From Spirulina major PCC 6313 (GTDB lineage Bacteria; Cyanobacteriota; Cyanobacteriia; Cyanobacteriales; Spirulinaceae): DNA of 64,000 nucleotides. The position numbers and the translations under genes were made by a program. The stretch is from assembly GCF_001890765.1 (NCBI RefSeq), contig NZ_KV878783.1, forward strand, positions 3,314,771 to 3,378,770, read 5' to 3'. Of the stretch, positions 4,586 through 9,977 are shown in pieces. Below the pieces are notes generated by a model. That model did not search any database and was not told where the DNA came from. It was given only the letters and a program-made list of their open reading frames with translations. Every line of letters starts with the position of its first letter. The stretch's first letter is position 1.

Positions 4586-4771
4586 GTTGAGATATCCTCG
4601 ATGCTTGAAGTTCTGCTCTATCATGGGGTACGTTGCCGCTCGCACCGCTCTTTCCCCAAGTTTGGGGCAGTTTGTTCAATCTTAGAGCGATCGACAACGC
4701 AGTAAGATAACTTAATATCATCAAGGGTGGACTAAACTCAATGCCCTGCCTATATTGCATGAGGAGTAGTG

Positions 4772-5416
4772 ATGGCTGAAATGAATCAACAGGATATGCG
4801 CGATCGCCTAGGAAATGTTGACCAAATTAGAGATATTCTGTTTGGGACCCAACTGCGAAATTACGAACAACGCATTGAAAAACTCGAAGCAGAATCAGCC
4901 GAAATGCGCCAAGAAATGCACAATCGGTTTGATCAGATGCAAAACTCGTTAACCGGTGAACTAAAAAGTATCGCAGATTCCCTGGAAAAGAAGCTGAAAT
5001 ACTTAAGTTTGACCACCCATGATGAAACCACAAAATTATGGCAAAAGCTCGAACAATCGAACCAAAAAAACTATACAATCCTCGAAACTCTCAATAAAAC
5101 CTTCAGCACCAAAACATCGAGTCTGCGAGAAGAACTCAACCAAACTCAAGAACAGTTCCAGCTTGAAACCCAAACCCTGAAAGCGAAGATTTTCGAGGAA
5201 CTCGAAAAATGCTTCTCGACCCTCCGGGATGCCAAGGTCTCCCGCGTTGATCTCGCTGAAGTGTTGTTTGAACTCTGTATTAAGGTCAAAGGCACTGAAT
5301 TTGTCCCGGATCTTAAAGAAGCGATGGAAAATCATCTCCAAACTGATTTTCTCTTGCCGGAAGAGGAACAATCACCATCACAAACATCCCAGTCTTCTGG
5401 GATGACCCAAGGATAA
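4772..5416 (+). CDS. Coiled-coil protein next to the GTPase/OmpA cluster
   Basis: A 214-residue, mostly alpha-helical, charged and soluble protein. Residues ~25-135 are heptad-like, with repeated Leu/Ile at a/d positions (YEQRIEKLEAESAEMRQEM onward), predicting a long coiled coil. A compact conserved part at ~140-190 (AKVSRVDLAEVLFELCIKVKG) follows, and the tail is Ser/Gln/Pro-rich. Start: ATG at 4772 after GAGGAG; the GTG directly before it is an unlikely start. It is on the same strand as the OmpA-like, GTPase and histidine kinase genes that follow after a 375-base gap, so it may be part of that module. Function unknown; a scaffold or adaptor role is inference only. Confidence 0.72.
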   Translation: MAEMNQQDMRDRLGNVDQIRDILFGTQLRNYEQRIEKLEAESAEMRQEMHNRFDQMQNSLTGELKSIADSLEKKLKYLSLTTHDETTKLWQKLEQSNQKNYTILETLNKTFSTKTSSLREELNQTQEQFQLETQTLKAKIFEELEKCFSTLRDAKVSRVDLAEVLFELCIKVKGTEFVPDLKEAMENHLQTDFLLPEEEQSPSQTSQSSGMTQG

Positions 5417-5791: not shown

Positions 5792-7900
5792 ATGCCTTTT
5801 CCCTCAGAAGATCCGATTTCTCGTCCCAACCCTGATTCCCAAACACCCTCAATGCCATCCCCTCTTCCCCAAGCTGATGCTTCACTTGGGGAATTATTCC
5901 AGTTTTTAACAGAACATGATCTGCCCCAGCATCCAGATCGCGATCGCCCCCTTGCGGATGCTGGGGCACTCTTTCACTCGTCCCAACCCAACAGACAGGG
6001 CCCCATCTCCGATGAGACCAGTGAGCGGCTCCGGTTGCTCCTGCTGGATCTCCTGGCCATTGATCAACAGAATGCCACCGATACCCCAGCAGAGACCCAA
6101 GACGAACTCTCGCGCCAACTGCGTCGCCTCGAACATCGGTGTCGCGATCCGCGCGTCATGGGGCAGGTTATCTATCCAATTTTTGCGACCCTCCTGCAAC
6201 AGAAAATCGCCCAATCCCCGGACGAAATTGTACCCGCCCTGGCCACCATCATCGATCAGGTCTTAGCGACCCAAAGCCAGCGCGATCGCACCGCCCTCAG
6301 TAAAGCCCTCGCCGCCGCCATTCCCGGCGCGATTTCCAAACAAATGGGGGATGCCCCTCATGAAGTGGTGCAAGCGATCGCCCCCGCCATGGGTAAAGCG
6401 ATCACCGCCCAAATCCGCCTTGATCGGGACTCAATGGTTGATGCACTCTACCCCGTCATTGGCAACACGATTTCCAAATACATGGGGGAAGTGGTCAGCC
6501 AAATCAATCACCGGGTTGAACAAACGTTCAGCCTCACCGGCTTGATGAATCATCTGTCCCTGCGCCTCCGGGGGATTTCCGACGCTGAACAAATCCTCCG
6601 GGATGCGATGCCCTTTAATGTCCAAGCGGTGTTTCTGATTCACAAAGACTCCGGACTCGTGATCGCCGAAGTGCAGCAATCGGGAACAGCAGCCCTCGAA
6701 GCCGATATGCTAGCGGGGATGCTCACGGCAATTCGTAGCTTTGCCGGGGAATGTTCCACCGATCCCCGCCATCAATCGGAACTGACGCAAATCGACTACG
6801 AAGATTTTCAAATCATTATGGAAGTGGCGGGCTACTGTTACCTGGCGGCGGTGACCCAAGGCGACCCACCGGCGATCTTTTCGATCAAACTACGCCAAAC
6901 CATGAGCGCGATTATTCTCAATCATGGCTACGGGGATGCGATCGAACAGTTTGACGGCAATCCCAACAGCGTACCGGAGTCGATCCCAGAACTCCTCCAT
7001 GACCTCCTTAATGCTCCCCAGCAGATCGAACGCTCACCGGTCGAGCGTCGCCCTCTGCCGTGGGGGTTGGTGCTGACATTGGGGTTTGTCTTGGTGGCGG
7101 TGGGGATTCCCTTGGGGGTGATGAAATATCAATGGTGGCAGGCGCACCAGTTGACGGCACAACTGCGCGACACCTTTGTATCAACCCCTAGCTTGGCGCT
7201 GTACCGGATTCAGCCGGTTGTTGAGAATCAGACCATCACGTTAACAGGACAGGTTCCCAGTCTGGTGTTACAACAACAGGCTGCTGACATTACCCGTCAA
7301 CTAGCTCCGGATTTCACCGTCGATAATCAGGTGAGCGCCGTGGATGCTCCCCCGGAGCCAGAGGCGATCGCAGCCGAAGCCCAACGCCTCACCCAAGGCC
7401 TCGCCCAAGTCCTCGCCACCCCCATTACCAGCACCTACGACCCCGATCTCCAGCAACTCCTCGTCCAAGGCAGCGCCCTCAGTGCCGACCAAACCGCTCA
7501 ACTCACCGAAAGTTTACGCCGGATTCCGGGGGTGCAGTCTGTGGTGTTGTCCCTCGATAATCAAGGATCACCCCTAGCCCAACGGGTCTATTTCACCCCC
7601 AACGGTGTCGATATTAGCCCCCAAGAATATAGCCAAAAACTCACGCCCCTGATTCGCTACCTGCGCGACAATCCGACGGTGAAACTCCGCATCATTGGCC
7701 ATACCGATCGCAGCGGAACCGAGCAAATTAATCAACAACTCGCACCCCAGCGAGCGGCTGCGGTGCAAGCGGTGTTGAGTCAAGAAGGGATTCCGCTATC
7801 CCAGCTAGAGACGGTGGGGATGATCGATCCCCCTCCCCAAGTGAGCAATGCCGATGCACTATGGTTAAGTCGGTGCGTGCGCTTTGAAGTGGTTAACTAA
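5792..7900 (+). CDS. OmpA-family envelope protein with internal Roadblock-like domain and BON-like repeats
   Basis: A 702-residue protein with, in order: a low-complexity N-terminus; helical repeats at ~120-245 in which a DALYPVIGNTISK-like unit recurs; a domain at ~262-375 (ISDAEQILRDAMPF, then VFLIHKDSGLVIAEV, then MLAGMLTAIRSFA) resembling Roadblock/LC7-type folds; one transmembrane helix at ~422-445; two BON-like segments at ~455-515 and ~525-590; and a C-terminal OmpA domain (~600-702) with the peptidoglycan-binding pattern IIGHTDRSGTEQINQQLAPQRA. Most likely the N-terminal half is cytoplasmic and the OmpA domain holds the cell wall. Its stop is 20 bases before a Rab-like GTPase. Roadblock proteins such as MglB regulate small GTPases, so a regulator-GTPase pair is a reasonable inference. 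Confidence 0.82.
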   Translation: MPFPSEDPISRPNPDSQTPSMPSPLPQADASLGELFQFLTEHDLPQHPDRDRPLADAGALFHSSQPNRQGPISDETSERLRLLLLDLLAIDQQNATDTPAETQDELSRQLRRLEHRCRDPRVMGQVIYPIFATLLQQKIAQSPDEIVPALATIIDQVLATQSQRDRTALSKALAAAIPGAISKQMGDAPHEVVQAIAPAMGKAITAQIRLDRDSMVDALYPVIGNTISKYMGEVVSQINHRVEQTFSLTGLMNHLSLRLRGISDAEQILRDAMPFNVQAVFLIHKDSGLVIAEVQQSGTAALEADMLAGMLTAIRSFAGECSTDPRHQSELTQIDYEDFQIIMEVAGYCYLAAVTQGDPPAIFSIKLRQTMSAIILNHGYGDAIEQFDGNPNSVPESIPELLHDLLNAPQQIERSPVERRPLPWGLVLTLGFVLVAVGIPLGVMKYQWWQAHQLTAQLRDTFVSTPSLALYRIQPVVENQTITLTGQVPSLVLQQQAADITRQLAPDFTVDNQVSAVDAPPEPEAIAAEAQRLTQGLAQVLATPITSTYDPDLQQLLVQGSALSADQTAQLTESLRRIPGVQSVVLSLDNQGSPLAQRVYFTPNGVDISPQEYSQKLTPLIRYLRDNPTVKLRIIGHTDRSGTEQINQQLAPQRAAAVQAVLSQEGIPLSQLETVGMIDPPPQVSNADALWLSRCVRFEVVN

Positions 7901-7920
7901 ACTAAAGTCTGAACAGTGTC

Positions 7921-8445
7921 ATGGGTACTATTTCTAAGAAAATTTGTATGGTGGGTGACTTTGGGGTGGGGAAAACGAGCTTGATTCGGCGGTTTGTCGA
8001 GCGGGAATTTAGCGATCGCTACCTCTCGACGGTGGGCGTGAAAATTTCCCGCAAAGTCATTCCCCTCACTCCTGATCTAGATCGTAATCTTGATACCCTC
8101 AAACTCCTGATCTGGGATCTTGAAGGACAGACCAAATTCAAAGCTATTACCCCCTCCTACCTCCACGGCTCCGAAAGTATCTTGGTGGTTGCCGATGTAA
8201 CCCGCCAAGAAACCATTGATAACATCCAAAACCATATTCAACTGTTTCTCGGTATTAATCCCCAGGGATCGATTGCGATCGCCCTCAATAAAATTGATCT
8301 CCTCGACAGTGACGAACAGTCATACCTCAAAGAATCGATTCACTCAACCTTTACAACCACAGTGGGAGCGTATTTCACGTCAGCAAAAACAGGCGAAAAT
8401 GTAGACACAATCTTTAATGCGATCGCTCAAAAAATGGTGCCTTAA
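7921..8445 (+). CDS. Rab/Ras-like small GTPase
   Basis: A 174-residue single-domain P-loop GTPase with all G motifs: G1 GDFGVGKTS (12-20), a switch I threonine near 37, G3 WDLEGQ (65-70) in place of the WDTAGQ usual in Rab proteins, G4 NKID (123-126) and G5 TSAKTGEN (153-160). There is no C-terminal cysteine for lipidation and no membrane segment, so it should be cytosolic and recruited by partners. It starts 20 bases after the OmpA/Roadblock-like gene and is followed 32 bases later by a histidine kinase, all on one strand. Bacterial GTPases of this type (for example MglA) act in polarity and motility. The role here is unknown. Confidence 0.9.
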   Translation: MGTISKKICMVGDFGVGKTSLIRRFVEREFSDRYLSTVGVKISRKVIPLTPDLDRNLDTLKLLIWDLEGQTKFKAITPSYLHGSESILVVADVTRQETIDNIQNHIQLFLGINPQGSIAIALNKIDLLDSDEQSYLKESIHSTFTTTVGAYFTSAKTGENVDTIFNAIAQKMVP

Positions 8446-8477: not shown

Positions 8478-9977
8478 ATGACTCCTCCGCTACAGACTCT
8501 GAATCTTCCGAGTTTTATTGAATACATTATTATTGACGCGAACTTTAGGCTCACTCACCTTGCATCTCATACCGTGAGCCATTGTCACGCAAACCTCAAC
8601 ATCAACGATGATGTGCGCAATGCTTTTCAAGAACTAGTGGGCATCGAACAGATTACCCAACGTATTTTAGCCAATCAACAACCCGGCTTCACCCTTCAAG
8701 AGGTCATTCACTATTCCTCCCAGCAACCCGATTCCGGCATTTATCTCACCTTGAATCTGCAACGATTAGATGAGCAACATCTAATTATTTTCATCGAAGA
8801 TGTCACGGAAACGGCTCTGTTACGCCAAGCCTTAGTGCAGCGGGTGAATGAAACAGAACTACTGTTAAATGCGCTGCAATTGTCCGAAAATTATAATCGT
8901 CGCATTATTTCATCAATGGGCGATGCACTGTTTACCATCAATGCTTCAGGGGATTTGAAAACCATTAATGCCGCCGCTCTCACCCTCTTCGGCTATGGTG
9001 AAGCAGAGTTAAAAAATCAACCGTTAGCCACCTTATTTCAAAACCAAATCCCCGCCTCAATTTCCCCTGAATCAATCCTCAAAAATCCCACCTTAGAGAA
9101 TTACGAAGTGACGTGCCATACCAAACAGGAAAACAGTATTATTGTGTCGTTCTCCTGTTCATTTGTCCATTCAAAAGAGAATGATTTACCCATTTTTATC
9201 TATATTGGTCGTGACATCACGGCTCGCAAAAAAACAGAGCAAAAAATCAATCAAGCTCTAGCCCAGGAAAAAGAATTAAATGATCTCAAGTCTCGCTTTA
9301 TTGCGATGACATCCCACGAGTTCAAAAATCCCCTATCCAGTATTTTGATGTCGGTGGAATTGCTCGAAGAATTTGCGGATAATTGGACTCTGGAAAAGCG
9401 GATGACGCATCTCAAGCGGATTCGGCAATGTACAACACAGATGAATGATCTGCTCGAAGATATTTTAGTGCTGGGGAAAGCCGATACGGGGAAACTGGAG
9501 TTTCAGCCGCGGCCGTTGGATTTGGGGAATTTTTGTCAGGAGTTGACGGAAGAATTGCAGTTTTTAGCCGGCGATCGCCACGCCATCACCCTCCACCTTC
9601 AATCCCCCCTTGCGCCTACCTATGCCCTGGATGAAAAACTATTGCGCCAGATGTTGGTGAACTTAATTACCAATGCGGTGAAATATTCACCTCAGGGGGG
9701 TGTGGTGGATTTTCGGGTCGCGGTGGAGGGGGAGAGCCTGTGGTTTGGGGTGCAGGATCAAGGGATTGGGATTCCAGAATCGGATCAGCCACGTTTGTTT
9801 GAATGTTTCCACCGATCGCACAATGTTAGGGATATTAAAGGGACGGGGTTGGGCCTTTCAATTGTGAAGCAAGCGGTGGAATTACACGGCGGCACGATCG
9901 CATTTCAAAGTGCGATCGACCAAGGCACGACCTTTGAAGTGCGCTTACCCCTGCATCTAACTCCATGGAACAGTTAA
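8478..9977 (+). CDS. PAS-domain sensor histidine kinase (soluble)
   Basis: A 499-residue kinase without transmembrane helices. The N-terminal ~120 residues look like a divergent PAS-type sensor. A clear PAS domain follows at ~140-250 and ends with IYIGRDITARKKTEQK. The HisKA domain carries the phospho-acceptor His280 in TSHEFKNP, and the HATPase domain has the N box (NLITNAVKYSPQGG), G1 (DQGIGIPES) and G2 (GTGLGLSIVKQAV). No response regulator is adjacent, so its partner is elsewhere. It follows the GTPase by 32 bases and overlaps the next gene by 13 bases, so it is probably in the same operon. Confidence 0.93.
   Translation: MTPPLQTLNLPSFIEYIIIDANFRLTHLASHTVSHCHANLNINDDVRNAFQELVGIEQITQRILANQQPGFTLQEVIHYSSQQPDSGIYLTLNLQRLDEQHLIIFIEDVTETALLRQALVQRVNETELLLNALQLSENYNRRIISSMGDALFTINASGDLKTINAAALTLFGYGEAELKNQPLATLFQNQIPASISPESILKNPTLENYEVTCHTKQENSIIVSFSCSFVHSKENDLPIFIYIGRDITARKKTEQKINQALAQEKELNDLKSRFIAMTSHEFKNPLSSILMSVELLEEFADNWTLEKRMTHLKRIRQCTTQMNDLLEDILVLGKADTGKLEFQPRPLDLGNFCQELTEELQFLAGDRHAITLHLQSPLAPTYALDEKLLRQMLVNLITNAVKYSPQGGVVDFRVAVEGESLWFGVQDQGIGIPESDQPRLFECFHRSHNVRDIKGTGLGLSIVKQAVELHGGTIAFQSAIDQGTTFEVRLPLHLTPWNS

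Follow-up and report, generated by a model that had tools for sequence, protein, structure and literature searches.

Which signal might a small Rab-like GTPase relay when its gene directly follows that of a peptidoglycan-binding membrane protein, and through which domain would the two proteins meet? This question is raised by a locus of Spirulina major PCC 6313, the genome of which comprises 5.05 Mb in two contigs; the window, i.e., the whole stretch of DNA analysed, has a length of 64,000 nucleotides. Four genes located on the + strand between window positions 4769 and 9977 encode a coiled-coil protein, an OmpA protein, a GTPase, and a histidine kinase in this order, separated by intergenic gaps of 375, 20, and 32 bases. 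The features of the locus are as follows:

4769..5416, + strand: coiled-coil cytosolic protein of 215 aa, opening the conserved neighbourhood (ORF; a coiled-coil gene in this place is also part of the neighbourhood outlined in PMC4316618)
5792..7900, + strand: OmpA-type transmembrane protein of 702 aa (ORF, Pfam, hydropathy)
6575..6976, + strand: cytosolic domain of the OmpA protein, about residues 262-395, putatively strand-strand-helix-(strands)-helix and longin-type by profile (hhalign, chunk test, Fuz_longin_1 match of a paralogue)
6695..6754, + strand: most conserved helix of this domain, LEADMLAGMLTAIRSFAGEC, residues 302-321, aligning with the first helix of TRAPPC1, KLMYGMLFSIRSF (family alignment, hhalign)
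7046..7129, + strand: RR and transmembrane helix, residues about 419-446 (hydropathy)
7148..7336, + strand: BON domain, residues 453-515 (PF04972, 3.4e-8)
7589..7849, + strand: OmpA peptidoglycan-binding domain, residues 600-686, with HTD and LAPQR (PF00691, 3e-13)
7921..8445, + strand: small Rab-like GTPase of 174 aa, Group 1 Rup type (Ras 1.5e-28, Roc 2.4e-26)
8478..9977, + strand: output histidine kinase with the common N-terminal region of the output family (about residues 11-125), PAS, HisKA, and HATPase (Pfam and output-family alignment)

The preliminary description of this DNA, made from the sequence alone, had placed a 702-aa OmpA gene 20 bases in front of the GTPase gene, a coiled-coil gene upstream, and a PAS kinase downstream; all four were recovered, the two central ones with exactly these borders. 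The gene set as such is already known as a neighbourhood. In the sections of Wuichet and Søgaard-Andersen (2014, PMC4316618) considered here, Group 1 Rup GTPases were defined by tree, taxonomy, and neighbourhood, with the absence of the G3 Gln as a described trait, and were reported for Bacteroidetes, Chloroflexi, Cyanobacteria, and gamma-proteobacteria. Their neighbours were given as a coiled-coil protein, a protein whose unknown domain often precedes a transmembrane helix plus OmpA, and either a histidine kinase or a c-di-GMP enzyme. In the same sections, the cytosolic domain of the OmpA protein was left unassigned, and no member of the Rup family had been experimentally characterised as of 2014. 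A literature search by the name of the Rup GTPases found no further paper beyond PMC4316618, and searches on bacterial longins and cyanobacterial Ras-like GTPases, judged largely from titles and abstracts, found none on the domain. New in this study are the superfamily assignment of the domain by profile, its closer tie to RabGEF longins, and a rhizobial cyclase version of the neighbourhood.

The association of the two central genes was evaluated in 244 cyanobacterial genomes. The OmpA sample comprised 38 places in 31 genomes at which the match covered the cytosolic domain, places matching only in the BON/OmpA part or the N-terminus being left out. The GTPase sample comprised 37 places (E < 1e-20) with open frames of 166-228 aa, excluding 15 weaker places with frames of 528-1174 aa. 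A GTPase gene was detected within 3 kb of 33 out of the 38 OmpA genes (within 500 bases for 28), and an OmpA gene was found near 33 out of the 37 GTPases; since the genomes are related, these cases do not represent independent events. Both genes were present in 30 genomes, the OmpA gene alone in one, and the GTPase alone in one. The link between the OmpA and GTPase genes is not due to chance. Five of the 38 OmpA genes and four of the 37 GTPases were unpaired, so there is no strict dependence in either direction. Four of the five unpaired OmpA genes represent the approximately 1200-aa paralogue present in four genomes of a single genus, and the exceptions also include genome G105 as well as G078, in which the OmpA gene and the GTPase reside on separate contigs. 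A relative of the coiled-coil gene was detected in 26 out of 32 loci (L001-L032), most of which were available with a flank of just 1.5 kb. Among named relatives, those closest to the OmpA gene were Spirulina MAGs.

In plasmids, GTPase matches at E 1e-5 were obtained for four out of 72,556 records, and the cytosolic domain was present in those same four. The OmpA protein matched 88 plasmid records, and among the best 30 of these 88, 26 matched in the C-terminal part only. GTPase and OmpA gene were adjacent in all three records examined out of the four. The plasmid of Mesorhizobium sp. WSM1497 shows the order hypothetical protein, OmpA family protein, Rab family GTPase, and adenylate/guanylate cyclase, and the plasmids of Rhizobium sp. 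007 and Nostoc sp. UHCC 0926 share the order coiled coil, OmpA gene, GTPase, and next ORF. Two Rhizobium records have identical scores, and the Nostoc plasmid, equal in length to contig C7 of G167, is not independent of the 244-genome sample. Co-occurrence of the two genes outside the studied genome is strong, and the cyanobacterial and rhizobial cases bear out the earlier proposal that the pair is widespread; the four-gene set itself was published in 2014 (PMC4316618).

The OmpA protein consists of a helical N-terminus, a domain assigned by profile to the Roadblock/longin superfamily, one transmembrane helix, a BON domain, and an OmpA domain. The top Kyte-Doolittle hydropathy window (2.5) begins at residue 426, with RR at 419-420 just before it, and, by the positive-inside rule, the N-terminus would be cytosolic. 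PF00691 was detected above its cut-off (50.4 bits vs 27.2), and HTD and LAPQR are presumably the peptidoglycan-contact residues. Hydropathy and PF00691 are in agreement with the single transmembrane helix and C-terminal peptidoglycan-binding domain recognised earlier, the BON domain having gone unmentioned. The helical N-terminal region (window 6092-6574, residues about 101-261), with repeated segments, e.g., xIAPEMGxAI, differs greatly in length among relatives, in which the hairpin of the cytosolic domain starts between residues 172 and 674.

Along residues 262-395, a helix is followed by the hairpin VQAVFLIHKDSGLVIAEVQ, the long conserved helix LEADMLAGMLTAIRSF, a putative three-strand region with the core FQIIMEVAGYCYLAAVTQG, and a further helix. 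In a simple propensity plot, strands were predicted for VQAVFLIHK and CYLAAVT, with a weak strand signal between them. For this region, a Roadblock-like fold had been proposed in the preliminary description. Profile comparisons suggest that the superfamily part of this proposal was right and that the domain is closer to RabGEF-type longins than to Roadblock. Alignment of a 41-sequence domain alignment with TRAPPC1/Bet5 by hhalign resulted in Prob 71.5, P 3.6e-5, and a score of 35.3 over 84 columns in order. The same alignment gave P 0.0031 and a score of 22.2 against Roadblock, compared to a shuffle maximum of 20.2. The TRAPP score of 35.3 contrasts with 18.9 for the best of 300 column shuffles, 12.1 for the reversed alignment, 19.9 for the best of 107 chunks from other window ORFs, and 19.1 for the best of 13 multi-sequence decoys. 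The longins of AP sigma (P 0.34) and Sec22 (P 0.091) gave no hhalign signal and were discarded as nearest relatives.

When 202 chunks of the window ORFs were ranked, two chunks of the OmpA protein came out on top with the TRAPP profile (P 2.2e-4 and 3.2e-4, compared to 0.017 for the best chunk of another protein), as did residues 226-375 with the Roadblock profile (P 6.8e-4, compared to 0.016). One helix accounts for most of the TRAPP signal. In single-sequence hhalign runs, the signal shrank to this helix (26 columns of TRAPPC1, P 4.7e-4), and the domain was not matched by the TRAPPC4 piece; a forced global alignment against TRAPP was weaker (P 0.0012). Searching the PDB with a 32-member domain profile (E up to 10) yielded only the TRAPP subunit BET5 (E 0.63 and 0.86), and a 39-member profile yielded BET5 (E 0.24 and 0.38) followed by ribosomal L11 at 1.2. 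These weak matches are not significant alone, though the first ones belong to a Rab-GEF longin.

At the level of families, Pfam did not match the window copy of the domain. PF03259 (Roadblock) had no match in the studied genome, among 32 domain members, or at the domain in 32 genomes, and membership in the Roadblock/MglB family was rejected on these results, while the superfamily level was retained. Canonical Roadblock proteins were detected at E 1e-3 in two out of the 31 domain-bearing genomes (G174 and G091); a 413-aa frame of G129 passed the cut-off only via summed weak repeats. Their absence from 29 of the 31 genomes indicates that no MglB-type partner is competing there. The Sybindin HMM obtained chance-level matches in the 244 cyanobacterial genomes, none of them at the domain. 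The sole longin Pfam family reached by domain members was Fuz_longin_1 (FUZ/MON1/HPS1), with values between 4.4e-5 and 0.1. The best of these matches, all below the cut-off (4.4e-5, 0.0014, 0.0015, and 0.012), were obtained for the long paralogues of approximately 1200 aa (L097, L098, L105, and L106), which originate from one genus and carry the domain without a nearby GTPase. For the G195 copy, a match over a shorter stretch (0.0012) was likewise sub-cut-off, as was that of L026 (0.1).

In a six-frame search of the 244 genomes with Fuz_longin_1, the top match was the domain of the G099 paralogue with 24.4 bits, compared to a cut-off of 26.1 bits and 17.4 bits for the next match; other copies of the domain, including that of the window, were not reported. 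Evidence for the window copy itself accordingly comes from the chunk test and from the position of this copy in the alignment. DUF6831 was matched below threshold by three out of 32 members (best 8.5e-4), covering most of the domain in L019 and L017 (8.5e-4 to 0.0014); it was set aside, as were Peptidase_M16_C, DUF716, and other scattered sub-threshold Pfam matches. The 16 pattern matches of the domain profile in viral contigs included no relative.

Two AlphaFold models, each computed from three sequences at least 82% identical to the window, reached pLDDT values of 42.5 and 57.9. Compared to the longin reference fold (b-b-a-b-b-b-a-a), the latter model drew the hairpin and the long helix, and placed helices instead of the expected strands 3-5. 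Models of such low confidence are uninformative on the fold, leaning slightly against a longin/Roadblock arrangement.

The GTPase of the window encodes all five G motifs (GDFGVGKT, STVGV, DLEGQ, NKID, and SAK). Its nearest PDB chains were Rab22A (2.2e-23), Rab31, and Rab1A (2e-23 to 6e-21), and all 14 PDB matches at E up to 1e-20 bear Rab names, which corroborates its earlier reading as a Rab-like GTPase with intact motifs. The C-terminus (AIAQKMVP) shows no cysteine lipidation motif. The G3 Gln, described as absent in Group 1 Rup, is present here (DLEGQ). Across 38 distinct GTPases, the residue following DxxG was Q in 12, H in 10, S in eight, E in five, and N, R, and C in one each; given this variability, the claim of 2014 that the Gln is missing from Group 1 should be toned down.

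The outputs of the examined loci featured histidine kinase or GGDEF motifs wherever they were labelled (simple motif labels). A common N-terminal region was found in 36 output ORFs, with E, G, and Y invariant in 36/36; some of these ORFs stem from one locus sampled twice, and the rhizobial cyclases were left out. The region is read as PAS-like followed by a linker helix. Two near-invariant Gln (35/36 each) are located in the stretch after it. According to an idea put forward in 2014 (PMC4316618), the output enzyme contributes its invariant Gln to complete the GTPase site. We give this little weight, because the Gln pair resides in a stretch read as linker and a third of the GTPases bring their own Gln. 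The output of one rhizobial plasmid locus (L063:9330-10400) is an adenylate/guanylate cyclase, the N-terminus of which was missed by the shared-region profile.

Taken together, we consider it slightly better than an even chance (about 55%) that the four genes encode an envelope-to-cytosol signalling module, in which a wall-anchored, longin-type regulator of the Rab-like GTPase controls an output enzyme. The OmpA protein would span the inner membrane and extend into the periplasm, where BON and OmpA would lie on peptidoglycan. Its cytosolic longin-type domain, probably dimeric, would bind the adjacent GTPase and set its nucleotide state by promoting GDP/GTP exchange or by serving as a platform for it. 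The GTP-loaded GTPase would then engage the common N-terminal region of the output enzyme and alter the activity of the latter, a histidine kinase here and GGDEF proteins or an adenylate/guanylate cyclase elsewhere. GEF-type exchange is favoured because the nearest relatives of the domain by profile are Rab-GEF longins and not MglB, which makes a GEF-type regulator more likely than an MglB-type GAP. The narrower proposal of a bacterial transmembrane RabGEF-type module, i.e., a longin of the TRAPPC1/Mon1 kind joined to a peptidoglycan-binding domain and acting on the Rab-like GTPase of the neighbouring gene, is put forward only tentatively.

The direction of the regulation may also be the opposite. 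As a GAP, or as an MglB-like dual GAP/GEF, the domain would switch the GTPase off at a wall-anchored site by supplying or aligning catalytic groups. The Roadblock profile, too, ranked the domain first in the window, MglB acts as both GAP and GEF according to the part of PMC11016934 cited here, and outside help is plausible, because family members vary at the G3 Gln. We nevertheless regard this as unlikely, as the domain is nearer to RabGEF longins than to Roadblock and the window GTPase brings its own Gln. Rather improbable as well is an unrelated alpha/beta sensor that still serves as the partner of the GTPase, its resemblance to longin/Roadblock being due to convergence on one hairpin and one helix. 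Such a sensor would fit family scores that are all sub-threshold and models devoid of strands 3-5, whereas two independent profiles placed the region first with a gap to the next protein, and the TRAPP alignment follows the order of the columns over its whole length.

The OmpA protein may finally be a fixed landmark in the envelope that places the GTPase, which in turn places motility or growth machinery. Its architecture could anchor any bound partner, and positioning of this kind by MglA/MglB in Myxococcus is mentioned in PMC4316618. However, the conserved set includes no known motility or cytoskeletal gene, and the place of the fourth partner is taken by a kinase, GGDEF protein, or cyclase, so that we consider this landmark role quite improbable. 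Polarity, or a fixed position of the GTPase in the envelope as raised in the preliminary description, gains no specific support from the present results. The signalling module outlined above remains the preferred reading.

Among known systems, the Group 1 Rup neighbourhood as outlined in PMC4316618 features the same four genes, with a histidine kinase or GGDEF/EAL output, and the G1-G5 motifs of the window GTPase are close to eukaryotic ones. The locus differs in its G3 Gln, and our analysis adds a superfamily for the domain and the cyclase output of the Mesorhizobium plasmid. The TRAPP core, in which the TRAPPC1/Bet5 longin acts with Rab1/Ypt1, provides the best profile match and a Rab-like partner; in contrast to it, the domain forms one polypeptide with a transmembrane, wall-binding part, the similarity is below family thresholds, and no TRAPPC3-type subunit was seen within the operon. 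The tri-longin RabGEFs Mon1-Ccz1, FUZ-INTU, and HPS1-HPS4 are linked to the domain by the sub-cut-off Fuz_longin_1 matches, and have three such domains compared to one here. As in MglA-MglB, a small GTPase gene lies beside that of a putative Roadblock/longin-superfamily protein, but PF03259 is not matched, the GTPase is Rab-like instead of MglA-like, and the partner is predicted to be membrane- and wall-anchored. The Streptomyces conservon (CvnA-D) likewise unites a histidine kinase, a Roadblock-type protein, and a GTPase in one operon; it has no OmpA part as described, and its GTPase belongs to another clade according to the section of PMC4316618 cited.

Longin-like domains in bacteria are not new as such, given that 'Longin/Roadblock' is listed as present in bacteria in a review table (PMC4917890). 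In the part of a 2012 paper considered here (PMC3521125), eukaryotic longins were derived from prokaryotic Roadblock GAPs, and, in the relevant section of a 2024 Asgard study (PMC10933270), such genes were reported as generally not residing in common operons in the MK-D1 archaeon. If the longin reading holds, it bears on the origin of the eukaryotic Rab-longin partnership. Should the RabGEF-type module be true, the Rab-longin pairing would exist in bacteria as an operon, and the state of the wall would be relayed to kinase, c-di-GMP, or cyclic-nucleotide outputs. With a superfamily for the conserved domain, what had been a list of neighbours becomes a testable mechanism, namely, a wall-anchored GTPase regulator.

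Variants of the gene run were also observed. Two loci (L101, G033:C11; L102, G045:C24) consist of a GTPase followed by an output without an OmpA gene, and the same genomes also have a full pair. The studied genome itself harbours a second copy of the system (L096, G000:C2:3867426-3869689), in which a GTPase is accompanied by an OmpA paralogue of 1247 aa and by two output ORFs. In L104 (G229:C75), the OmpA gene and the GTPase are separated by an additional output-type gene (851 aa) and a further two outputs follow, amounting to three outputs in one run.
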